Assembly (NCBI GenBank): GCA_027482505.1
Contig: JAIXVY010000191.1
Span: 1 to 32,108 of the forward strand
Length of the DNA stretch: 32,108 nt
Direction of reading: 5' to 3'
Source: Opitutaceae bacterium
GTDB taxonomy: Bacteria; Verrucomicrobiota; Verrucomicrobiia; Opitutales; Opitutaceae
The first letter of the stretch is position 1, and the number at the start of each line of letters is the position of its first letter. Of the stretch, positions 750 to 24,988 are shown piece by piece. Below the pieces are notes generated by a model that did no database searches, was not told where the DNA came from, and saw only the letters and a program-made list of their open reading frames with translations. The translations under genes were made by a program, and so were the position numbers.

Positions 750-3700
750 ATGAACCAATCCCCAGCTCATCATTTTCCATGCCGTGCTTCGTGCGTTGGC
801 CAGCTGTGCGCAGCAATTATGCTGATTGCCGCGCTCGCCATCAGCGCAACGCGGCCCCTATCCGCGCAACCCGCCATTGCAGCAGGCTCGTTGCATAGTC
901 TCATCCTAAAGGCAGACGGCACACTCTGGAGCTGCGGAGACAATGGCTCCGGCCAGGTGGGCGGAGGCACGGCGACAAGGCTCTTATATCCCTCCTTGGT
1001 CATGTCCGGCGTTCGCGCCATCTCTACCCAATACTCCCATTCGCTTATATTAAAAGACGACGGCACAGCGTGGGGCTGCGGCTTCAACGGCTCAGGGGAA
1101 CTTGGACTCGGCAATACGACCAATCGCCTAACCCCCGTTCAAATAATGACTGGGGTTCAGGCGGTGGCAGCGGGCGTCCAACACAGTCTTTTCCTAAAAA
1201 CCGACGGCACCGTCTGGGCTACCGGAGTAAATGGAAATGGCCAATTAGGCGACAACTCCACTCAAAGTAAGTCTGCTCCCGCGCAAGTGTTGAGCACCTC
1301 AGGACAAGCACTCACGGGCGTAAAAGCCATAGCTGCAGGTTTAAGCCACAGTTTATTTTTAAAAACAGACGGGACAGTTTGGTTTTGTGGCACTGGTTAT
1401 TCAGGAAATGGTTCACTCACTGTCAACCAAACCTATGCCAGCCAGATAGCCACAGGCGTAAAAGCTATATCTGCAACTTGGAATCACAGCCTGCTATTAA
1501 GAGACGATGGTTCCGTTGCGGCTTTTGGTGAAAATAGCTGGGGCCAGTTGGGTGACGGTGGAACAACAGCTCGAGCCACCCCCGTGCAAGTCATGACTGG
1601 CGTTCAAGCAATCTCCACAAACCAGTTCTCAAGTTTATTCCTAAAAACAGACGGAACCGCGTGGAGAGCAGGAAGGGTGAATGTCGCTGGAGTAACTTCA
1701 GGCACTTCTACACCAATACAAGTCTTGACTAATGTGAGCGCGATTGCCGCAGGTCAAAATCATAGTCTATATTTAAAGGCCGACGGCTCGGTTTGGGGAG
1801 AAGGCACCAATCAATCTGCGCAATTGGGAGACGGCACATATTCTGATCGCGCGACTGCGATCCAAATATTTAATGTGGCCGCGCCGTCCTACCAAATAGT
1901 AAATGGATCGTTTACATGGACCCAAGCAAAGACGGATGCGGAGGCACGCGGGGGGCGACTGGCTATTATTGATACTCAAGCGAAGATCAATCACTTAGAG
2001 AACTTGCTCACCCGAGCAGGCTCTTGGCCTTTTCTATGGCTGGGCCTCACCGACACTGAATCAGAAGGAACCTGGAAGTGGCTGGACGGAACCATAATAA
2101 CAACTAACAACTGGGCAGCCGGAGAGCCAAGCGCATCCAACAGCCAAGAGGATTATGTTTACATTTATCCAAGTGGTTCAGTTTATCCACGCAAATGGAA
2201 CGATGCTCCGCAAGATGCACCATCTCCAAACCAATCAGGTTATCTACTAGAAGTCCTAAAGCCTTTTTCACCTTACGGCTGGGGAACGGACTCCGCGGAG
2301 GGCAGATTAAATACTCCCTCGGGGCTAGATAGCTTAACTAAGATCGAAGGAGGCTATAACCACAGTGTGGCACTTAAATCCGATGGCACCGTAGTCGCTT
2401 GGGGAAATAACAACGGAACCCAAGGAATCACCCAAGTGCCAGCCGGCCTTTCCAGTGTTATAGATATAGACGCGGGCTGGAATTGGACAGTTGCCAGAAG
2501 AAGCAACGGAACATTGGTCTCCTGGGGGGCCAATGATTCAGCTCAAATTACACAAACTCCTACCAATCAAAGCTTCATCTCCGTAGCCGCCGGAAACATG
2601 CATGGTGTGGCTTTAAAAAATGATGGCACCGTAGTGTGTTGGGGACGCGGAGACTTTGGTCAAAAAACTGTGCCCGCGGGATTAAATAATGCGATTGCGG
2701 TGGCTGCTGGCGGCCATTGGACAATGGCGCTTAAAAATGACGGCACGGTGGCCGCCTGGGGCGCGATTACCAATTTCCCGCCAATCGGATTATCCAACAT
2801 CTCGAAGATCGCAGCCGGAGACAGCTTTGGTTTGGCCCTTCGTAGCAATGGCACTGTGGTAGCTTGGGGAGACAACACTTACGGGCAACTAAACATTCCC
2901 GCAGGCTTGGATAACGTTACTTCAATTTATGCTACAGCTTTGACAGCATATGCCATAAAGACCGACGGCAGTGTAGTAAGCTGGGGCGATAATCGCTTCG
3001 GCCAGCGCAATATTCCGATATTACCCGGCAATCAACGATGGAACACAATCGGTGGCGGCTGGGAACATGTTTATGGATTGGCTTTAATTCCATCCGCTCC
3101 AATAATTACATCTCAGCCTCTTGCGGTTACCAACTTTTTGGGCGCAACCGCAAGCTTCTTGGTATCCGTTTCCAGCACACTTTCCCCAAGCTATCAATGG
3201 CGCAAAAATGGCGTCGATATTCCAGGGGCCACCACGTCTACCCTATCTCTCGCTTCAGTGTCTCTGACGGATGCCGGAAGTTATTCCTGCCTGATATCAA
3301 ATTCGGTCGGCTCGGTAGTATCAAATTCCGCAAATCTAACGGTATACCCTGAAACCAATCTCACTATCCGCACGCAGCCCGCCTCACAAGCAATAGTCCT
3401 AGGCAATAGCGTTACCTTTAGCGTATTCGCTACAAGCGTAGATCCAATTGGCTATCAGTGGCGCAAAAATGGCATTACTATTCCCGGTGCCACCTCGGCT
3501 AATTATACTATAGCTGCCGTCACTAGCACCGACGCAGGCAACTACACTTGTATAGTAAGCGATCCCGATGAACTACTGTTAACAACCGCAGCCACGCTTA
3601 TTGTTCAAACTCTACCGGCCATTACTTCTCAACCCACTTCGCTGACCGTGCTGCAGAATGCCTCCGCAACTTTCAGCGTCGCGGCCACCGGCACACCCGC

Positions 3701-4502
3701 CCCCACCTACCAATGGCGCTTCAACGGCAGCCCCATATCCGGCGCCACCTCGGCTTCCTATTCCATCGCCTCAGCCCAGGCGGCCAACGCGGGCAACTAC
3801 ACCTGCGTCGTGACCAACGCCGCCGGCTCCGTCACTTCGGGCACCGCCACGCTCACGGTAAACATACCCGCCGCCATCACCGCCCAGCCCTCTTCCCAGT
3901 CAGTCAACCCGGCCGCTTCCGCCACCTTTAGCGTCACCGCCTCGGGCACCGGTTCCTTGAGTTATCAGTGGCGCAAAAACGGCCGCAATATCGCCGGCGC
4001 GACCTCCAGCACCCTCACCCTGTCCAATGTCCGCTTCTTGGATGAGGCCAAATACACTTGCCTGGTCTCGAATGCGTTCGGCTCCGCACTGAGCACCGTA
4101 GCCACACTCACCATCACCATCAGCCCCACTTCGCCCGATTCCGACGGCGACACCATCTCCGACGCCTTGGAGACCTACCTGTCCGTCTTCGGCCTCGATC
4201 CGGCGGTGGACTCCACCGAGGAGTGGACCCGCCTCCTGGCCATGATTCCCGACCTTGGCGCCTATTACACCGCCGACCAGATGCGCGATCTCGCGGTCGG
4301 CAGCCCCACCCTGCGCCGCGGCACCAACGGCAACTTCCTTCTCGATGTCACCGTTCAAGAATCCACCAACCTCAACACGTGGACCAACCGCGCACTCTCC
4401 GCGCCGATGATCACCTATCCCGGCGGCGTCCTTCGCGTCGAACTGCCCCCACTCGATTCCTCCACCCACTTCTATCGCCTCAGGAGCCAAGCGGCCCCGT
4501 AA
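750..4502 (+). CDS. Giant exported protein: RCC1 repeats, C-type lectin-like domain, RCC1 repeats, four Ig-like domains
   Basis: A 1250-residue exported protein. A long N-terminus ends in a hydrophobic signal segment (LCAAIMLIAALAISATRPLSAQ), with likely cleavage near residue 40. Residues about 42-375 hold seven RCC1-like units of the form AIAAGxxHSLxLKxDGTxWxxG. Residues about 380-506 resemble a C-type lectin fold (FTWTQAKTDAEARGGRLAII, FLWLGLTDTESEGTWKWLDG, NNWAAGEPS). Residues about 528-775 give six more RCC1 units with AWG cores. Four Ig-like domains follow (about 785-1127), each with a YQWRxNG motif and a late C residue in the Y(S/T)C strand. DSDGDTISDALE at about 1132 resembles a calcium-binding TSP3 loop, and the C-terminus has a QESTNLNTWTNR motif. 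A role in surface adhesion or carbohydrate binding is inference. No PEP-CTERM or autotransporter domain is visible. The first 2.9 kb are AT-richer than the last 0.85 kb. Confidence 0.88.
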   Translation: MNQSPAHHFPCRASCVGQLCAAIMLIAALAISATRPLSAQPAIAAGSLHSLILKADGTLWSCGDNGSGQVGGGTATRLLYPSLVMSGVRAISTQYSHSLILKDDGTAWGCGFNGSGELGLGNTTNRLTPVQIMTGVQAVAAGVQHSLFLKTDGTVWATGVNGNGQLGDNSTQSKSAPAQVLSTSGQALTGVKAIAAGLSHSLFLKTDGTVWFCGTGYSGNGSLTVNQTYASQIATGVKAISATWNHSLLLRDDGSVAAFGENSWGQLGDGGTTARATPVQVMTGVQAISTNQFSSLFLKTDGTAWRAGRVNVAGVTSGTSTPIQVLTNVSAIAAGQNHSLYLKADGSVWGEGTNQSAQLGDGTYSDRATAIQIFNVAAPSYQIVNGSFTWTQAKTDAEARGGRLAIIDTQAKINHLENLLTRAGSWPFLWLGLTDTESEGTWKWLDGTIITTNNWAAGEPSASNSQEDYVYIYPSGSVYPRKWNDAPQDAPSPNQSGYLLEVLKPFSPYGWGTDSAEGRLNTPSGLDSLTKIEGGYNHSVALKSDGTVVAWGNNNGTQGITQVPAGLSSVIDIDAGWNWTVARRSNGTLVSWGANDSAQITQTPTNQSFISVAAGNMHGVALKNDGTVVCWGRGDFGQKTVPAGLNNAIAVAAGGHWTMALKNDGTVAAWGAITNFPPIGLSNISKIAAGDSFGLALRSNGTVVAWGDNTYGQLNIPAGLDNVTSIYATALTAYAIKTDGSVVSWGDNRFGQRNIPILPGNQRWNTIGGGWEHVYGLALIPSAPIITSQPLAVTNFLGATASFLVSVSSTLSPSYQWRKNGVDIPGATTSTLSLASVSLTDAGSYSCLISNSVGSVVSNSANLTVYPETNLTIRTQPASQAIVLGNSVTFSVFATSVDPIGYQWRKNGITIPGATSANYTIAAVTSTDAGNYTCIVSDPDELLLTTAATLIVQTLPAITSQPTSLTVLQNASATFSVAATGTPAPTYQWRFNGSPISGATSASYSIASAQAANAGNYTCVVTNAAGSVTSGTATLTVNIPAAITAQPSSQSVNPAASATFSVTASGTGSLSYQWRKNGRNIAGATSSTLTLSNVRFLDEAKYTCLVSNAFGSALSTVATLTITISPTSPDSDGDTISDALETYLSVFGLDPAVDSTEEWTRLLAMIPDLGAYYTADQMRDLAVGSPTLRRGTNGNFLLDVTVQESTNLNTWTNRALSAPMITYPGGVLRVELPPLDSSTHFYRLRSQAAP

Positions 4503-4524
4503 TATAAATAAGTTAGGCAACACC

Positions 4525-4549
4525 GCTAGAGACCCCCTAAGGGGTTAGC
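4525..4549 (+). terminator. Weak hairpin between the two giant secreted-protein genes
   Basis: GCTA-gag-ACCCC-CTAA-GGGGT-TAGC forms a bulged stem-loop 23 bases after the RCC1 gene stop. No T-tract follows, so it may be an attenuating or RNA-stabilising structure and not a full terminator. Confidence 0.3.
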
Positions 4550-4565
4550 TTGAAACCGAATACCC

Positions 4566-7500
4566 ATGAAAAAGAGCCTTTCCTCGCACCTGCTGATGCT
4601 CTGCGCCTTGATTTTTAATTTTGCGTTGGCCGGCGAACCGATTCCCGACCGAATCCTCGTGCGGTTCAAGCCGGACGTAACAACCGCGGAACGATCCTCG
4701 ATTGAAGAGAAATACAACCTTACACTGCTGAAGGAAATAAAACTCTTCAAAATACACGTATACTCCTTCGATAGCACCTTAAGCACAAGCACCAGTCTTT
4801 GCGAAAAGCTTAAGTCCGAAGTCGGTGTAGAAACAGCGGAGCCAGACCAAGCCAGAAAAATTAGCAGCGCGAACGACCCCGATTACACGAAGCAGTGGTA
4901 TCTGAATAACACCGGACAAACCGTGAACGGAAAATCGGGGCCGGCGGGCATCGATATACGATGGCCGGCCGCCAACGCTCGTTACAACCCCCAGTCCGTA
5001 ATTAAGGTCGCCGTAATAGACTCGGGCACGGCTATTCTGCATCCAGATCTCGTCGGCTCGATGTATAACAAAGCCTCTGAAGTAATAAATGGAATTGATG
5101 ACGACAACAACGGGCTAATAGACGACTGGTGCGGCTACGACGTCTTCTCGGACGACAGCCTGGCGCTTGACCAAAACGGACATGGCACGCTAGTCGCGGG
5201 CATAATCGCGGCCGAGATAAACAACTACACGGGCGGAAGCGGAATCACCAATAACATAGAAATAATACCCTACCGCATATTTGACCAGTTTGGTCGCGGA
5301 GGCAGTCCCAAATACAGGATTGGCAGCATAGGCGTTTCAGACGTGCTTGTGGCATTGGCGCACGCCGTCGAAGAGGGATCGAAAATCATCAACTTAAGCC
5401 TAGGTGGGAGCGGCTTCAGCTCACTGGAGCAAGAAGCCTATAATCAATTGGTTAATGAGAACATATTGGCTATAATTGCCGCGGGCAACGGAGGAGTCGA
5501 CAGCAAGGGAGATAATAACGACATTTACCCGACTTATCCCGCAACTTACCCTTCGTCTGCAATCATAGCTGTTGCCGCGCAAAAGAGAAGCGGCGGCCTT
5601 GCGGATTTCTCCAATTATGGAGTTGTCAGCGTAGATATAGCGGCCCCCGGAACCGACATCTATGGACCGGACGTAACCAGAAAGACAATATTCTACCAAA
5701 GCTTTGATAACGGCGCACCAGGATGGACAGTGGGGAGGAACACCAGTGACCAGTCCTACTTAAATTGGACGATAGCCTACGATGGAGCCAATGGCTACCT
5801 AACCGATCGCCTGCCTTATACAGAATACCTTCCAAATACAGATACATGGGTAAGGTCTCCATTTATCGACTTGAGCGCTGCCGCTGGAACCAGGCTTGAA
5901 TTCGATTCGTATTTCGAACTGGCGGATGACTACATAGTGCTAGAAGTTTCAAATGATGGCCTCAATTGGACTGACTACCAATATTTTTATAGCGATGAGT
6001 TTACTGCATTTTCAACCGAGCCCATGGATATATCCGACTTGGATGGGCAATCGGGATACCTAAGATTCAGATTGGTGAGCGATTATTCAATTCAAGGCTT
6101 TGGAGCATTAATCGATAATGTGAAAATCTCCGCCATTGATGACTTTAACGCCAGCAACCCAAGTTATAGATATAATGATGGAACCTCATTTGCGGCACCC
6201 GTCGTTGCCGGTGTAGCAGCTATGGTGTGGACTCACAGGCCTGACCTTACTGCCGCCCAAGTCAGAAATTGCATACTTCTCTCGGCTCGCCCCGTATCAC
6301 TTTTAAGCGGCAAGGTGGCTACCGGGGGCATGGTAGACGCAAACGCCGCACTGATTTACGCGGATTCGCTGCCAAAAACCACCCAGTCCATCGATTTCAA
6401 TCCCATCTCAAACCAAATTTTTAATCCGACAGAAAACAACCAAGTGCCGCTCTCGGCAATTTCCAGTTCCGGTCTGCCCGTCACCTACGAGGTCGTTTCC
6501 GGACCCGCGACGATCAGTAATAACACACTAACGATTACCGGACAGGGAACAATCACGGTTCGAGCCTACAATTCAGGAACCAACAGCTACTCTAGCGCAT
6601 CGGCAAGCCGAAGCTTCACTGCTTCGCTGCAGAAGCAGCAGCAAACCATCAGCTTCCCGCAACCTTCTGATAAAACTTTTGGCGATGCGCCGTTTACAGT
6701 GACGAGCTCCGCATCAAGCGGCCTCGCAACCAGTCTGACTTTGATCAGCGGGCCAGGAACCTTAAACGGAAACACCTTAACCATAACCGGGGCAGGTCAG
6801 ATCGTTTTGCGCTCCACCCAAGCAGGCAACAGCGCATACGAAGCGGCTAGCCCGGTTGATCGCACAATAGCAGTTAGCAAGCAAGTCGCAGGCATAGGCA
6901 CAAGCGGCCTTAATAAAATTTATAATGGTGGTCGTCATACAATCTCCACGGCCACCAGTCCAGCGGGACTAAACTTACTGGTCTCTTACAATGGCCAAGC
7001 CTTAGGCCCGATCGAAGCGGGGACTTATCAGGTTGGTCTTACCATCTCAGATGCCAACTACACTGGCAACTCCACCGCTATCCTCGTGATTGAGAAAGCA
7101 AACCAAACCATCACGCCGCCCAATATCCCATCCCAAATCAACTATTCTCCCTCCAACAACACCCTGACTCTAAACGCGACAGCAAGCTCTGGACTACCCG
7201 TATCCTATAGCGTAATAAGCGGCCCCGCCAGAGTTGATGGCAACATACTTACCGTCAGTGGAGGAGGCAATATCACGCTACGCAGTTCGCAGAGCGGCAA
7301 CAACAACTACAACAGCGCCGCAAATGTGGACACTAGTATTAGCGTAACTGACGCAAATGATGTTCCTCGGGTAATTAGTCAGCCCACCACGGTCCTTGCA
7401 GCGGTTAATTCCAACGCCTTACTAGATATAACAACTTCCGGAACTGGCCTAAAATACCAATGGTATTTTGCAGGCAAAGCCATCAAAGGTGCGGTAGCCG

Positions 7501-8123
7501 AAGATCTTTTCCTAAAGGTAACCGCGAAATCCGCAGGCACCTATATTCTTACCATGATCGACAGCACCGGAGACATCGCCACTGCTTCGGTCACACTTCG
7601 CGTGGCGCTAGCGCCCAAAATTACAAGACCTCCCGCCAAAGCAGCATCGGTCGCCCTTGGCGGCTCCGCGACCTTAGTTGTAGCCGCAAGCGGAGAAGCG
7701 CTTTCTTACCAATGGTTCCGCAATGGAGTAGCCCTCCAAGATCAAACCGCAGCCACCCTGTCTGTCTTCTCTGCCACGGCCGAATCCTCAGGCAACTACA
7801 CTGTGCGGGTCAGTAACATTGCTGGCTCAGTCACCTCGAAAGGAACTAGCCTTACTGTGCTTGCGCCACCGACCGTTGGCACAATTACCGGCCCCTCAGT
7901 GGTGGCGATGCGCTCGGGATTCACACTTGGCGTTATTGCCAGCGGTCCTGGAAAATTAATTTACCAATGGCGTCTGAACGGCAGCCCAATACCGAAGGCC
8001 ACCGGCCCCCGATACGTTGTGAAAACAGCCACTTCCACGAACGCGGGCACATATACCGTCACTGTAACGAATTCGGTTGGATCTACCACCAGCGATGGAC
8101 GCGTGTTGGCTGTAACACCCTGA
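4566..8123 (+). CDS. Secreted subtilisin-like serine protease (S8) with Ig-like and MBG-like C-terminal domains
   Basis: An 1185-residue exported protein with a clear signal peptide ([23 protein letters not shown]). A propeptide-like region ([22 protein letters not shown]) precedes a subtilase domain with Asp152 in VAVIDSG, His206 in NGHGTLVAG, Asn308 of the oxyanion hole in AAGNGG and Ser541 in [17 protein letters not shown], so all catalytic residues are present. A block of about 150 residues (about 376-525, [15 protein letters not shown] to [10 protein letters not shown]) is inserted between Asn and Ser and looks like a jelly-roll beta-sandwich. After the protease come three similar repeats with [14 protein letters not shown]/LTITGxGxI motifs, one MBG-like domain (NKIYNGG...[16 protein letters not shown]) and about three Ig-like domains with YQW motifs up to the C-terminus. 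It is co-oriented with the RCC1 gene 63 bp upstream and may share its transcript. The substrate is unknown. No sorting signal is seen. Confidence 0.93.
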
Positions 8124-18554: not shown

Positions 18555-19160
18555 ATGGGTTATCTATTGCGTGTTGGCTTCGGAATTTGTCTCGCAACCT
18601 CCTGTTCGGTTGCACGTTCAGCTATAATTTATACGGATTTTAGGGCAGCACCAATTACGGTCGTATCTGGAAGCCCCATATCTGTGGACATGGATACCGC
18701 CCAGGCTGGAACAAGTGTTCCCGGCAATGATTTGTTTTTAGCCTACGGCAGCTTTTCCGTGGAAAATCCTAGCGTGCAGTCAAATCCAGCAGACACCTCC
18801 ATCGCCGCAGTTCCTGCTTCACCTGGCAATGTTTTGAGACTGAATTATGGAGACTCGTTTACATCAGCCTCTTTTGTGGCTTGGGGCGGTTTTTTAGACA
18901 ACGGTAGCTACGGAGGGTTTTGGGACGCTACAAGTGGCGAAGCCTATGTAGGTGTTCGAAAAGGCGGAAATGAGGGTTGGCTACGGATTTTTTATGACGA
19001 TAGTGCCGACGTGTTCCAGTTGACTGGTATAGCTTACAATCAGTCGGGAACTCTCACTGCTGGTCAAACGACGCAAATTCCTGAGCCAGGAACGGCAGGA
19101 TTATTTGGGGCATTTGTCGCGTTAGGTATGGCAAGTGTTTTAAGGCGCAGGGTGTCATAA
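18555..19160 (+). CDS. PEP-CTERM sorting domain-containing exported protein
   Basis: A 201-residue protein. A hydrophobic signal peptide opens it (MGYLLRVGFGICLATSCSVARSA). The C-terminus IPEPGTAGLFGAFVALGMASVLRRRVS has the PEP motif, a transmembrane helix and a basic cap, which is the PEP-CTERM sorting signal processed by exosortase in exopolysaccharide-producing Gram-negatives. The middle (YTDFRAAPITV, NVLRLNYGDSFTSASFVAWGGFLDNGSYGGFWDATSGEAYVGVRKGGNEGWLRIFYDD) looks like a beta-rich domain with no recognised function. Exosortase is not in the window. The gene is markedly AT-richer than the genes on either side, and the surrounding patch (18480-19465) shares this composition, consistent with acquisition. 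Confidence 0.9.
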   Translation: MGYLLRVGFGICLATSCSVARSAIIYTDFRAAPITVVSGSPISVDMDTAQAGTSVPGNDLFLAYGSFSVENPSVQSNPADTSIAAVPASPGNVLRLNYGDSFTSASFVAWGGFLDNGSYGGFWDATSGEAYVGVRKGGNEGWLRIFYDDSADVFQLTGIAYNQSGTLTAGQTTQIPEPGTAGLFGAFVALGMASVLRRRVS

Positions 19161-19357: not shown

Positions 19358-21736
19358 ATGCACCAATTGAAACGATGCGCGTTTAATGTCTCGGTCTTTT
19401 ATTATTTAGGTATTTTTCTTTGGCTGCTCGCAGAGTCTGCTGGTGCAAAAGAAACCGATAAGACCACTCTCGACATCCCCGTGCTGGTGGCCGGCTACGG
19501 GGCGGAGTTTTTCGAGGAGACGGCGCGCGAATTCGAGAAACTCCGGCCCGGCGTGCGGGTGAATCTCCACGGCGATCCGCGCATCAACGACAAGGTCCGC
19601 ACCCGCGTGATGGCGGGCGACTTTCCCGACGCCACCGACGCCGTCCTGCTCTATCCGAAGCTCATCGAGGCCGGGCGCGTCCTCGACCTCGGGCCCGCCC
19701 TAGACGGTCCCAATTGGGAGGGCGACGGCCGCTGGCGCGACGATTTTCGCCCCGGCGTGCTCGCGCGCTGGACCGACGCCGCCGGGCGCGCGCACGGGGT
19801 GCCCTTCGCCCACGCCATCTGGACGATCTTTTACGACAAGGCCCTCTTCCGGAAAAACGGCTGGGAGACGCCGCGCACGTGGGACGAGTTTTTCGCGCTC
19901 TGCGAAAAGATCGAGGCGGCCGGCCTTGCCCCGCTTTCGCTGCCGGGCGTGGCCATGCGCTACGGCGACGCGATCCTGCGCGCCGCGCACCACAACCTCG
20001 TCGGCCCGGAGGGCTATCGCGACTATCTCGCCCTCGCGCCGGGCGCGCGCGAGGATCCGCGCTTCATCCGCGCGGCGGAGGTGCTGCGCCGCGTCTCCAC
20101 CCGGCATCTCGTGCGCGGCTGGGAGGGCATGACGCACACCGCCGCCCAGCTCGCCTTTCTGGAGGGGCGCTGCGCCATGACTCTCTCCGCCTCCTGGTTC
20201 GCCAACGAGATGCGCGGCCGCCTGCCGGAGGGCCTGGAGCTCGGGGCGATGAACCTGCCGGTCTTCGCCGATGGTATCAGCCATCCGGATACGGTGCAGG
20301 CCCAGAGCGGCTACTATTTTCTTTTCCGCACCGGCGATCCGGCGCGGGAGGCGGCCGCGGTGGACTTTTTCCGCTTCCTCACCTCGCGCGAGCGGGTGCG
20401 GCGTTTCGCCGCCCTGGCCGACGCGCCCGCCGCGCTGCGCGCCGCCGGGCCCGCGGACTACTCGCCGCGCATGGCCGACACCGCCGCGCTCCTCGCCGCG
20501 GCGCCGGCCGCCTTCGACGCCGCCCCCGCGCCCGCCTCAGCCGCCCAGGCCACGCTGGGGCAGGCCCTCTCGGACGCGCGCCACCTGCTGATGACCGGCC
20601 GCATAACGTCGGAGGAATTCGGCGCGCGCCTGGAGGCCGCCGCCGCGGTCGAACGCGAGCGCGCCGCCGATCCCGACCACGTGAGGTCGCGGCATCCGGG
20701 CAAGGCCGCCCTGCTGGGCGGCCTGCTGCTCGGCCTCGCGCTTTGGCTGGCCTGGCCGCGTCGCCGCAAGGGCGGGCGCGCCGCGGGCGCGGCGGAGGGC
20801 GACGGCGGCCTGCTCGGCCGACTGGGCGCGCGGCAGGGCGCGGGTTTCGTGGGTCCGGCCTTCGCGCTCTACGCCGCCTTCGTGCTGTTGCCCGGCCTCG
20901 CCGCCTTCGCGTGGGCGTTCACGCGCTGGGACGGATTTGGCGAGATGACGTGGGCGGGGCTCTTCAACTTCCGCTGGCTCCTGCTGGAGAGCGACGTGTT
21001 TTGGTCCGCCCTTGGAAACAATCTCTTCCTCATGCTCGTGCCGCCGCTCGTGGTGGTGCCGGTCGCGCTCGGGCTCGCGGCCTACGTGCACCGCGGCGGG
21101 GCGGGCGCGGGCGCGCTGCGCGTGGTGTTGTTGTTTCCCAATCTGCTCGGCGGCATCGCGGCGGCGCTCATCTGGCTGGCGGCCTACGAACCGACGAGCG
21201 GTTTGGTGAACGCCTCGCTCGTGGCGCTGGGCGATCTGGCCGGCGCGGCGGGGGCGCCGGCGTTTCTGGCCGACTGGTTGCGCTCGTTCTCCGGCCACGC
21301 CTGGCTGGCGCAGTCCAATCTCTACTGGTCGCTCGTGCCCATCTACCTGTGGATGGCGTGCGGCTTCAACCTCGTGCTCTACCTCGCCGCGATGCAGGCC
21401 GTGCCGGCGGAGCTCTACGAGGCGGCGGAGCTCGATGGCGCCTCCAAGGCGCGGCAGTTCTTCCTCGTCACCCTGCCGCTGATTCGCGAGGTGCTCGTCA
21501 TCTCGGCGGTGTTTCTCGTCATCGGCGGGCTCAACGCCTTCGAGCTGGTGTGGCTGCTCACCGCGCAGGATCCCTCGGCCGGCGCGCACACCCTCGGCAC
21601 CTTCATGGTGGGAACCTTGTTCACCGAGTTTCAGGCCGGGCGGGCGGCGGCGATCGCGGTGCTGCTGTTCGCGCTCGTGATGGTGGCGACCCTGGCGGTG
21701 TTGCGGGCCACGCGAAAGGAGACGGTGGAGCTATGA
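19358..21736 (+). CDS. Fused ABC solute-binding protein and MalF-like permease
   Basis: A 792-residue protein from the ATG at 19358. A GTG at 19343 adds five residues. A signal-anchor (FNVSVFYYLGIFLWLLAESAGA) leads into an extracellular solute-binding protein family 1 domain, about residues 30-430: IPVLVAGYGAEFFEETAREFEKLRPGVRVNL, RTRVMAGDFPDA, AHAIWTIFYDKALFRKNGWETPRTWDEFFALC, AAQLAFLEGRCAMTLSASW. One helix (AALLGGLLLGLALWLAWPRRRKGG) then returns the chain to the cytoplasm, and a MalF-type permease fills about 495-792 with several hydrophobic segments and the EAA loop YEAAELDGASKARQFFLVTLPLI. Binding protein and permease are normally separate. The frame is open across the join, so this is a true fusion and not a sequencing break. 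The MalG-like gene overlaps by four bases (ATGA). No ATPase is encoded nearby. Substrate, probably a sugar or oligosaccharide, is inferred from family only. Confidence 0.9.
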   Translation: MHQLKRCAFNVSVFYYLGIFLWLLAESAGAKETDKTTLDIPVLVAGYGAEFFEETAREFEKLRPGVRVNLHGDPRINDKVRTRVMAGDFPDATDAVLLYPKLIEAGRVLDLGPALDGPNWEGDGRWRDDFRPGVLARWTDAAGRAHGVPFAHAIWTIFYDKALFRKNGWETPRTWDEFFALCEKIEAAGLAPLSLPGVAMRYGDAILRAAHHNLVGPEGYRDYLALAPGAREDPRFIRAAEVLRRVSTRHLVRGWEGMTHTAAQLAFLEGRCAMTLSASWFANEMRGRLPEGLELGAMNLPVFADGISHPDTVQAQSGYYFLFRTGDPAREAAAVDFFRFLTSRERVRRFAALADAPAALRAAGPADYSPRMADTAALLAAAPAAFDAAPAPASAAQATLGQALSDARHLLMTGRITSEEFGARLEAAAAVERERAADPDHVRSRHPGKAALLGGLLLGLALWLAWPRRRKGGRAAGAAEGDGGLLGRLGARQGAGFVGPAFALYAAFVLLPGLAAFAWAFTRWDGFGEMTWAGLFNFRWLLLESDVFWSALGNNLFLMLVPPLVVVPVALGLAAYVHRGGAGAGALRVVLLFPNLLGGIAAALIWLAAYEPTSGLVNASLVALGDLAGAAGAPAFLADWLRSFSGHAWLAQSNLYWSLVPIYLWMACGFNLVLYLAAMQAVPAELYEAAELDGASKARQFFLVTLPLIREVLVISAVFLVIGGLNAFELVWLLTAQDPSAGAHTLGTFMVGTLFTEFQAGRAAAIAVLLFALVMVATLAVLRATRKETVEL

Positions 21737-22596
21737 CACAGTCCGGCCGCTCCGGTTCGTTGCGCGTATCGCGCCTGCTGCTCTGGCTCGTGCTGCTCGG
21801 CTACGCGGCCTGGACGCTCATGCCTATGGCGTGGGTGGCGTATTCGTCGTTCAAGACCGACGCCGCGATCCTGCGCGAACCGCTCGCCCTGCCCTCGTGG
21901 GCCGAGGCGGATTTTGGCGCCTACGAGCGGGCGTGGAGCGGCTCGCGCCTCGGCGACTATTTTTTCAACTCCGTCCTGGTCACCGGCGTCTCGGTCGCGC
22001 TCATCCTGGCGCTGGCAGCCCCGGCCGCCTACGCGCTGGCGCGTTTTCGCCTGCCGCTGGGTCGCGCGGCCTACGCGCTTTTCCTGGCCGGGCTTACGAT
22101 TCCCGCGCAGCTCGCGATGGTGCCCTTGTTTTTCGAACTGCGCGCGCTCGGGCTGCTGGATTCGCGCCTCGGGCTGGTGCTGGTCTACGCGGCCAACGGC
22201 CTGCCCTTCGCTGTTTTCATCCTGGCGGGTTTTTTCCGCGGCCTGCCGCGCGCCTTGCATGAGGCGGCGGTGGTGGACGGCTGCGGCGAGTTCGCGGCGT
22301 TCTGGCGCGTGATGCTGCCGCTCGCGCGGCCCGGTCTGGCGACGGTGGCGATCTTCCAGTTCATCGGAATCTGGAAGGAGTATTTTTTCGCCTTCATGAT
22401 CGTGGGCGGGGGCGACGGCGGGGCCCGCACGTTGCCGCTTGGGTTGGCGAATCTCGCCATCACCGCCCAATACGGCGGAGATCAGGCGCGCCTTTTCGCC
22501 GGTCTGGTGATCGTCACGCTTCCCATCCTGCTGGTCTACGTCTTGCTCCAAAGGCAGTTGGTCGCCGGAATCGCCGCCGGCGCGCTCAAGGGTTGA
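21733..22596 (+). CDS. MalG-like ABC transporter permease
   Basis: A 287-residue inner-membrane permease starting at the ATG that overlaps the stop of the fused gene. The reading frame lies inside the longer 19714 track ORF, whose upstream part is a shadow. Six hydrophobic segments are visible, starting with LLLWLVLLGYAAWTLMPMAWVAYSSFK, then YFFNSVLVTGVSVALILALAAPAAYALARFRLP. The EAA loop that contacts the ATPase is EAAVVDGCGEFAAFWRVMLPLARPGL. The protein ends in VIVTLPILLVYVLLQRQLVAGIAAGALKG, the typical CUT1 MalG C-terminus. Translational coupling with the fusion gene implies an equimolar heterodimer. The energising MsmK/MalK-type ATPase must be encoded elsewhere, as commonly found for CUT1 systems. 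Confidence 0.93.
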   Translation: MTQSGRSGSLRVSRLLLWLVLLGYAAWTLMPMAWVAYSSFKTDAAILREPLALPSWAEADFGAYERAWSGSRLGDYFFNSVLVTGVSVALILALAAPAAYALARFRLPLGRAAYALFLAGLTIPAQLAMVPLFFELRALGLLDSRLGLVLVYAANGLPFAVFILAGFFRGLPRALHEAAVVDGCGEFAAFWRVMLPLARPGLATVAIFQFIGIWKEYFFAFMIVGGGDGGARTLPLGLANLAITAQYGGDQARLFAGLVIVTLPILLVYVLLQRQLVAGIAAGALKG

Positions 22597-22639: not shown

Positions 22640-24988
22640 ATGCCCGCCACCGCGATGTCGCTGGACAACACCCTCGACGCCTACGAGCCGATGCTGCTGG
22701 CGTGGCTGCGCCAGGGGCTGGACGACCACGCCATCGTCGCGCTGACCGACGCCGAGGGCGTCATCCGCCACGTCAATCAAAGCTTCTGCGACATCTCCGG
22801 TTACTCCGAGGAGGAGCTGATCGGACAGAACCACCGCATCCTCAAATCCGGCCAGCATCCGCCCTCCTTCTACGCGCGCCTCTGGGAGACTATCGTGGCC
22901 GGCGAGGTTTGGCGCGGCACGATCTGCAACCGCGCGAAGGACGGGCGCTTTTATTGGGTGCAGACCACCATCCTGCCCTTGCTCGGACTGGCCGGCAGGC
23001 GTCTCGGCTACCTGTCCGTTCGGACCGACGTCACCCGGTTGATCAACGTAGAGCGCGAGCTCACGCAAAAGACCCGCGAGCTGCAGCTCCTCTTCGACCA
23101 CTCCCCCATCGGCCTGAGCTGGCGGGAAGTGGACGAGCACGGCAACGCCGGCATAAACCACGTCAACAAGCGCTTCTGCGAGCTCATCGGCCTCACCCCC
23201 GAGGAGGCGGCCGATATCGGCAACGTGGCCCGCGCCACCCACCCCGACGACTGGAAGCACCAGGAGGTGCTGAACAACGAGGTCTATTCCGGCAAACGCG
23301 ACTCCTTCACGATGGAGAAGCGCTACGTCCATCCCGACGGCCGCATCATCTGGGGCATCCTCACCGTGGTGGTCGTCCGCGCCTCGGGCAACGGGCGCGT
23401 GACCCACCACTTCGCGATGCTTGAGGATATCACCGCCCGGCGCTTCGCGGAAGACGAGTTGCGCCGCACCGAGGCGCGCTGGCGCACCTACATCCAGACG
23501 GCCAGCGAGATTCTTTATGCCCTCACGCCCGAGGGGCGGATCAAGTTCGTGTCCCAGGCCTGGACTTCCAAGCTGGGCCACCCCGTCGACGAAGTCATCG
23601 GTTCGCCCTTCCGCGATTTCATCCACCCCGAGGACGTGGCGATGTGGGACGTCTTTTTCGCCCGCACCCTGGAAACCGGCGGTGACGGCGAGGGCATCGA
23701 ATACCGCACCCGCCATCGCGATGGCCGCTGGATCTGGCACGCCTCCACCGCCTCGGCTTACAGCGATCGCGACCGGCGGCGCGCCTTCTTCGGCGTCGGG
23801 CGGGATATCTCCATCCGTCGCCAGGCCCAGCAAGAGCTGCGCACCGCCCTCGCTCGTCTGGAGGAGATGGCGCGCATCGTCGACCGCTCTCCGTCCGTCG
23901 TCGTGCTCTGGCGCGCCGAGGGTGGCAACTGGCCCGTTGAATTCGTCTCGGCCAGCATACGCCAGTTCGGCTATTCCCCCGAGGACCTCACCGGGCGCCG
24001 GCTCAGCTTCCGCGACATCACCCACCCCGATGATCGCGAACGCGTCGGCGCCGAGGTCGACGCGCACGCCGCCGCCGGCCATCACGAATACACCCAGGAA
24101 TATCGCATCCAGTGCGCCGACGGCTCGGTGCGCTGGGTCGACGACCACACTATCGTCCGCCTCAACGAAAAGGGCGAGGTCACGCACCACGAGGGGCTCA
24201 TCACCGACGTCACCGCGCGCAAGGCGGCCGAGACCGGCGCCCGCGAGGCCCAGGAACGCGAGCTGGCCCTCGCCCGCGACGTGCAGCAGCACCTCCTGCC
24301 CAGCAGTTTCCCGCCACTCGGCCGGGTGGAGGTTGAGGTGCTTTCCCAGCCTTCCCAGCAGCTCGGCGGCGACTACTACGACGTGCTTCCCGTCGACGAG
24401 CGCCACCACGGTTTCGTCATCGCCGACGTCTCGGGCAAGGGCGCGCCCGCCGCGCTCATGATGGCCGCCTGCCGCGCCAGCCTTCGCCTCTGCGCCCCCG
24501 GTGAGCTCTCCCCCGCGGCCGTGCTGCGCCGGGTGAACCGCGCCCTCCAGCCCGACATGCCGCCGGGCATGTATATCACCCTGTTCTATGGTATCCTTAA
24601 CTTGGATACGCTGGCGCTCCGCTTCTGCCGCGCCGGCCACGAGCCCGCCATGCTGCTGCGCGCCGGCGGCGGCGCGCCCGTCCTGCTCGGCGACGGCGGC
24701 ATGGCCCTGGGCATGGCGCCGGACGAGCTCTTCGAGGCCACGCTCGACGAGGGCCGCGTGGTGATGGAGGCGGGCGACCTGCTCGCGCTCTACACCGACG
24801 GCGTCAACGAGGCCTGCAACGCCGGCGGCGAGGAGTTCGGCCGCGACCGCCTGGCCGACAGCCTGCGCCGTCACCAGAAGGAGCCGCTTGCCGAAATCCT
24901 GCGCCGCGTGGACCGCTACCTCCGCCAGTTCTGCACGCTCGCGCCGCGCCACGACGACCGCGCGCTGCTTCTCGTGCGGGCCCGCTAA
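22640..24988 (+). CDS. PAS-domain SpoIIE/RsbU-type serine phosphatase
   Basis: A 782-residue cytoplasmic-looking sensor phosphatase. PAS1 is about residues 28-132 (AIVALTDAEGVIRHVNQSFCDISGYSEEELIGQNHRILKSGQ). PAS2, about 150-262, has VNKRFCELIGLTPEEA and FTMEKRYVHPDGRIIWGI. PAS3, about 275-392, has ILYALTPEGRIKFVSQAWTSKLGH. PAS4, about 403-530, has QFGYSPEDLTGRRLSFRDITHPDDRERV. Each PAS ends in a PAC-like D(V/I)T motif. The PP2C-type SpoIIE domain, about 540-780, opens with LARDVQQHLLPS and has GGDYYDVLPV, IADVSGKGAPAALMMA, LLALYTDGVNEACN and HDDRALLLV, so the metal-binding aspartates are present. Such proteins dephosphorylate anti-sigma-factor antagonists. No antagonist or anti-sigma gene is adjacent. 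The start is 44 bp after malG. Confidence 0.93.
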   Translation: MPATAMSLDNTLDAYEPMLLAWLRQGLDDHAIVALTDAEGVIRHVNQSFCDISGYSEEELIGQNHRILKSGQHPPSFYARLWETIVAGEVWRGTICNRAKDGRFYWVQTTILPLLGLAGRRLGYLSVRTDVTRLINVERELTQKTRELQLLFDHSPIGLSWREVDEHGNAGINHVNKRFCELIGLTPEEAADIGNVARATHPDDWKHQEVLNNEVYSGKRDSFTMEKRYVHPDGRIIWGILTVVVVRASGNGRVTHHFAMLEDITARRFAEDELRRTEARWRTYIQTASEILYALTPEGRIKFVSQAWTSKLGHPVDEVIGSPFRDFIHPEDVAMWDVFFARTLETGGDGEGIEYRTRHRDGRWIWHASTASAYSDRDRRRAFFGVGRDISIRRQAQQELRTALARLEEMARIVDRSPSVVVLWRAEGGNWPVEFVSASIRQFGYSPEDLTGRRLSFRDITHPDDRERVGAEVDAHAAAGHHEYTQEYRIQCADGSVRWVDDHTIVRLNEKGEVTHHEGLITDVTARKAAETGAREAQERELALARDVQQHLLPSSFPPLGRVEVEVLSQPSQQLGGDYYDVLPVDERHHGFVIADVSGKGAPAALMMAACRASLRLCAPGELSPAAVLRRVNRALQPDMPPGMYITLFYGILNLDTLALRFCRAGHEPAMLLRAGGGAPVLLGDGGMALGMAPDELFEATLDEGRVVMEAGDLLALYTDGVNEACNAGGEEFGRDRLADSLRRHQKEPLAEILRRVDRYLRQFCTLAPRHDDRALLLVRAR

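Follow-up and report, generated by a model that had tools for sequence, protein, structure and literature searches.

A fused binding domain is an architecture already known among ABC importers. GlnPQ (PMC8025302) and OpuA (PMC11065425) carry fused binding domains, and within the CUT1 class a maltose/maltodextrin transporter has been described in which a single MalE domain is naturally fused to MalF, with structure and function characterised according to the title of the report (Licht et al., 2019, Res Microbiol 170:1-12, cited in PMC7756565). Here we analysed a locus of an Opitutaceae bacterium, contained in a window (the whole stretch of DNA that was analysed) of 32,108 nucleotides, that very likely encodes a CUT1-type ABC importer for a small oligosaccharide, with the sugar-binding protein permanently tethered to one permease subunit. 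In GlnPQ and OpuA, too, a single polypeptide contains both the permease and a binding domain, which docks inside the complex, but they belong to other importer families and have four (GlnPQ) and two (OpuA) binding sites, whereas one is expected here; the two or four sites of that type are not found at this locus, where MalG is a separate subunit that lacks a binding domain. The MalE-MalF fusion is said to come from Bdellovibrio. As far as the title of its description tells, it resembles the present protein in having one binding domain on the MalF-type subunit and a separate MalG, and differs in that its domain binds maltose whereas the one studied here is similar to NgcE and to lacto-N-biose-binding proteins. 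What is new is the scope, i.e., four fused clades in a permease tree of Verrucomicrobiota and a second fusion in the same genome; in the open-licence papers searched, no report of Verrucomicrobiota fusions was found.

Reading frame, domains and topology of the fused protein

The preliminary description of this DNA had placed a fusion of a solute-binding protein and a MalF-like permease at positions 19358-22596. The results showed that a fused ORF is indeed present, on the forward strand at 19358-21736, as a single frame of 792 codons running from an ATG at 19358 to a TGA at 21734-21736 with no internal stop; the fusion ends there, and the rest of the interval is a separate MalG gene (21733-22596). 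The features of the region, with the evidence for each, are as follows.

19358..21736, + strand: fused gene of signal peptide, SBP_bac_1 domain, anchor helix, linker and CUT1 permease, 792 aa plus stop (ORF, Pfam, homologues, AlphaFold2)
19358..19447, + strand: signal peptide, residues 1-30, h-region 7-25, likely cleavage after AGA as judged by eye (hydropathy; AlphaFold2 helix 2-27)
19463..20665, + strand: solute-binding domain, residues 36-436, predicted sugar contacts G46, Y202, D204, W280 and E284 (Pfam, alignment, AlphaFold2, fold match)
20696..20755, + strand: membrane anchor helix, residues 447-466, predicted to run from out to in (hydropathy, AlphaFold2; hydrophobic segment in 56/56 homologues)
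20756..20824, + strand: basic cytoplasmic cap and disordered linker of variable length, residues 467-489 (alignment, hydropathy, AlphaFold2)
20825..21733, + strand: CUT1 permease domain, residues 490-792, EAA loop at about 684-708 (Pfam, NCBIfam, conserved EAA residues, AlphaFold2)
21733..22596, + strand: MalG-type permease, overlapping the stop of the fusion by 4 bp (ATGA) (ORF, Pfam, NCBIfam)
22640..24988, + strand: PAS-SpoIIE phosphatase, 43 bp downstream of MalG, possible operon partner (ORF, Pfam)

Pfam searches matched SBP_bac_1 to residues 49-345 (92.7 bits, above the cut-off of 26) and BPD_transp_1 to residues 571-778 (36.3 bits, above cut-off), and the hydropathy profile displayed the signal peptide at 7-25, an anchor at 448-466 followed by WPRRRKGG, and then the permease segments, which comprise six helices with an intact EAA loop. 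ORF, Pfam and hydropathy thus agree with the earlier proposal that one frame joins a family-1 solute-binding domain, an anchor with a basic WPRRRKGG cap and a permease with an EAA loop. In an AlphaFold2 model of the whole protein (mean pLDDT 87.6, pTM 0.85), residues 447-465 formed the anchor helix and residues 475-486 a disordered linker (pLDDT < 50), followed by the permease helices with the EAA loop at about 684-708. The helix order of the model and the hydropathy profile together support the topology predicted previously, in which the binding domain would lie outside, the anchor would run inward, and the permease N-terminus and the EAA loop would lie inside.

The assignment as a full MalF-type permease held in part. 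The permease part is of the CUT1 type and its EAA loop is intact; the protein lacks any Pfam match to the P2 periplasmic domain of MalF (PF14785), which another permease of the same genome does have, it scored 38.8 bits against the NCBIfam MalF equivalog (cut-off 392, not reached), and its top-scoring permease model was UgpA. By these profile comparisons the fusion is not a MalF in the strict sense. Membership in CUT1 is indicated by a family-1 solute-binding domain (SBP_bac_1 over its cut-off, with sugar-binding folds nearest) and by two different permease subunits with EAA loops, the fusion and MalG both matching BPD_transp_1 and the loop of MalG being intact as read from its sequence.

Conservation of the fusion in Opitutales

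At E <= 1e-30 a match to the fusion was obtained in 41 of 141 near relatives, most of them aligned over almost the full length, and a genome collection supplied 49 loci; the final set of fused homologues, all distinct and full-length, numbered 56. We also sampled the order (373 genomes) and the phylum Verrucomicrobiota (388 genomes), and in these samples the family was confined to Opitutales, where it is mainly found in Opitutaceae, with members at 46-48% identity in two other families of the order; all 13 matches in the 388-genome sample fell within the same family. An additional fused homologue, with a frame of 764 codons, lies on a contig of 38% GC.

These data bear on whether two truly separate genes could have been fused by a sequencing or assembly artefact, a suspicion that a fragmented MAG of 540 contigs invites, as do the long open frames that arise by chance at high GC. 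We give this explanation next to no credence, given that the same fusion recurs in 56 distinct sequences, several of them from single-contig genomes (G018, G062, G027), and that the homologue on the 38%-GC contig repeats it; from base composition, the chance of a 792-codon open frame at 70.5% GC is P ~4e-7, and that of the homologous 764-codon fused frame is P ~4e-22. Among the homologues no split version of any complete gene of the family was found, the apparent splits being accounted for by contig ends (L129/L130, L082-L085) or by one transposon insertion (L056). In the latter, at L056:9989-11219 of the complete genome of IMCC26134, an insertion with IS3-like transposase frames, recognised by eye, interrupts the permease part of the fused gene. 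The idea of a conserved fusion, for which the preliminary description had looked to full-length homologues, is thus borne out: full-length fused homologues are numerous, the frame is uninterrupted near the linker, and close homologues are fused and not kept as two genes. Together, these data confirmed that the tethered fusion is conserved and is a real feature of this genome.

An origin from a two-gene operon was not visible in the genomes at hand. A search of 133 relatives gave no unfused close relative of the binding domain; the binding proteins that came next were about 30% identical, and no other close copy of the domain was found in this genome at E <= 1e-8. In the flanking sequence retrieved for the unfused sister group (L271-L280), no related binding protein was present.

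Across the 56 homologues, a hydrophobic anchor (KD > 1.4) was present in every one and was followed by a net charge of +2 or more in 55, the EAA residues E688, G694 and P707 were kept in all, and the permease helices were conserved to the same degree as the binding domain. The linker, by contrast, varied in sequence and in length (24-63 aa), and that of the 792-aa fusion is of low complexity and rich in basic residues. A disordered, variable and basic stretch of this kind might be where a protease cuts the chain after its translation, which would release a free permease and leave an anchored binding protein, the anchor staying on the binding domain. Such processing seems improbable for a linker that is cytoplasmic and carries no conserved motif, and a stop codon would achieve the same yet is used by no homologue. 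An internal ATG restart yielding a separate permease was also considered and rejected as not general, since 43 of the 56 homologues contain no Met in the stretch from the anchor to the permease. We retain the permanent tether as the preferred reading; conserved domains and a conserved anchor around a variable linker are the pattern expected if a tether is under selection.

Predicted binding site, partners and transport cycle

The nearest folds to the binding domain were sugar-binding proteins, and the closest of all, by fold and by sequence, was BiGFL-BP of B. infantis (9h0n/9h0o/9h0p), with about 21% identity over the structural match. The ligands of BiGFL-BP are lacto-N-biose, galacto-N-biose and the H1 trisaccharide, and the reported contacts are G47, Y208, D210, W290 and E294 (PMC12345172). 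These residues align with G46 (conserved in 53/56 homologues), Y202 (56/56), D204 (53/56), W280 (56/56) and E284 (56/56), respectively, and since such contacts are conserved, it is very probable that the domain is functional and binds a small oligosaccharide. The nearest named model was that of NgcE, which binds GlcNAc/chitobiose (TIGR03851, 163.7 bits against a cut-off of 399.65, not reached). The importers NgcEFG and BiGFL-BP share the key site residues of the domain studied here, but their binding proteins stand alone whereas this one is fused. As to the substrate, a beta-linked sugar with an N-acetyl group is a best guess and no more; no catabolic genes that point to a sugar are conserved next to the fusion.

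Of 57 loci, 55 had a same-strand MalG match next to the fusion, and the neighbours include dnaN, a CDP-alcohol phosphatidyltransferase and PAS-SpoIIE, the last near the same position in about 26 related loci. The closeness of PAS-SpoIIE and the missing catabolic genes would suit a transporter turned sensor, which would import little and pass a sugar signal on through the downstream phosphatase. Against this, both ATPase-docking EAA loops are intact, the permease helices are conserved as well as the binding domain, and many fused homologues have no PAS-SpoIIE gene nearby; the SpoIIE neighbour may also be coincidental synteny beside housekeeping genes. We therefore regard a sensor role as very improbable and favour an importer.

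The operon of the fusion contains no ATPase gene. A single OB_MalK ATPase was detected in the genome, a 79%-complete draft in which a second could be missing, at L180:767-1912 on contig C74 and unlinked to transporters, and exactly one MalK-type ATPase was present in 6 of 8 genomes examined. The simplest source of energy is probably this single unlinked MalK, shared among transporters. On contig C74, MalK adjoins a gene that resembles, by eye, a uronate isomerase.

In the importer that we propose, the predicted signal peptide would export the binding domain, the anchor would cross the membrane from outside to inside, the basic flexible linker would be cytoplasmic, and the permease, with its six helices, would begin on the inner side, as hydropathy and the model suggest. 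The permease would pair with the co-encoded MalG, to which gene order and the 4-bp overlap point, and a transporter assembled in this way would have exactly one binding domain. Two copies of MalK would dock on the two EAA loops and supply energy. The ligand would be a small oligosaccharide, probably with a beta linkage; the binding domain would close around it by means of two aromatic residues that stack and two acidic ones, as the conserved site residues suggest, and would hand the sugar to its own permease while staying in the complex. That one tethered domain per transporter would change capture kinetics, as previously suggested, is a reasonable inference.

Further fusions in Verrucomicrobiota

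A second, unrelated fusion of binding domain, anchor and permease was found in the same genome, at L175:2494-5061 on contig C263, where SBP_bac_1 (101.2 bits) and BPD_transp_1 (62.3 bits) lie in one frame; its clade reaches other families of Verrucomicrobiota. A phylum-wide permease search gave many matches within frames of 850-1000 codons, and 20 of the matches were sampled, with the binding domain assessed by a profile built in this analysis and not by Pfam. In all 18 with frames of at least 850 codons (L292-L309), the permease was preceded by a binding domain and a hydrophobic anchor, usually together with a basic flank, and these 18 fell in three further clades; the other two, with frames near 680 codons, did not have this arrangement. 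The C263 fusion and clades II-IV have the same order as the 792-aa fusion, i.e., binding domain, anchor, basic flank and CUT1 permease, but their permeases are about 24-30% identical to it where measured, their anchors differ, and they occupy separate clades of the tree.

A tree built from 118 permeases placed the fused proteins in four separate clades among unfused ones, which corresponds to at least four changes, gain and loss not being distinguishable; some branches are long, so that the number of origins may differ. A single origin of all fusions was disfavoured, by an AU test on a first, smaller tree (p 0.02) and by the four label changes on the larger one. One old gain of the fusion followed by losses is possible. 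We also put forward, as a tentative and rather doubtful proposal, that Verrucomicrobiota repeatedly tethered CUT1 binding proteins, in at least four clades; if so, some feature of their cell plan or lifestyle (for example a large periplasm or one shared ATPase) would disfavour free ones.

The default view of CUT1 binding proteins as separate is corrected by these findings. Free and tethered versions of one importer class coexist in one genome, probably sharing one ATPase, and this coexistence is a natural test of the effect of tethering on affinity, stoichiometry and transport rate. Annotation may name such fused genes 'solute-binding protein' only or 'permease' only.

Elsewhere in the same genome, on contig C500 (L174), lies a MalF that does possess the P2 domain; the frame next to it is unusually long and has a binding domain at its end. 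Positions 18555-19160 of the window, immediately upstream of the fusion, encode a small PEP-CTERM-like secreted protein (PEPGTAGLFG...LRRR, by eye), and positions 750-8123 encode two very large proteins, one with RCC1 repeats, Ig and C-type lectin domains and the other with subtilase, Ig and MBG domains.
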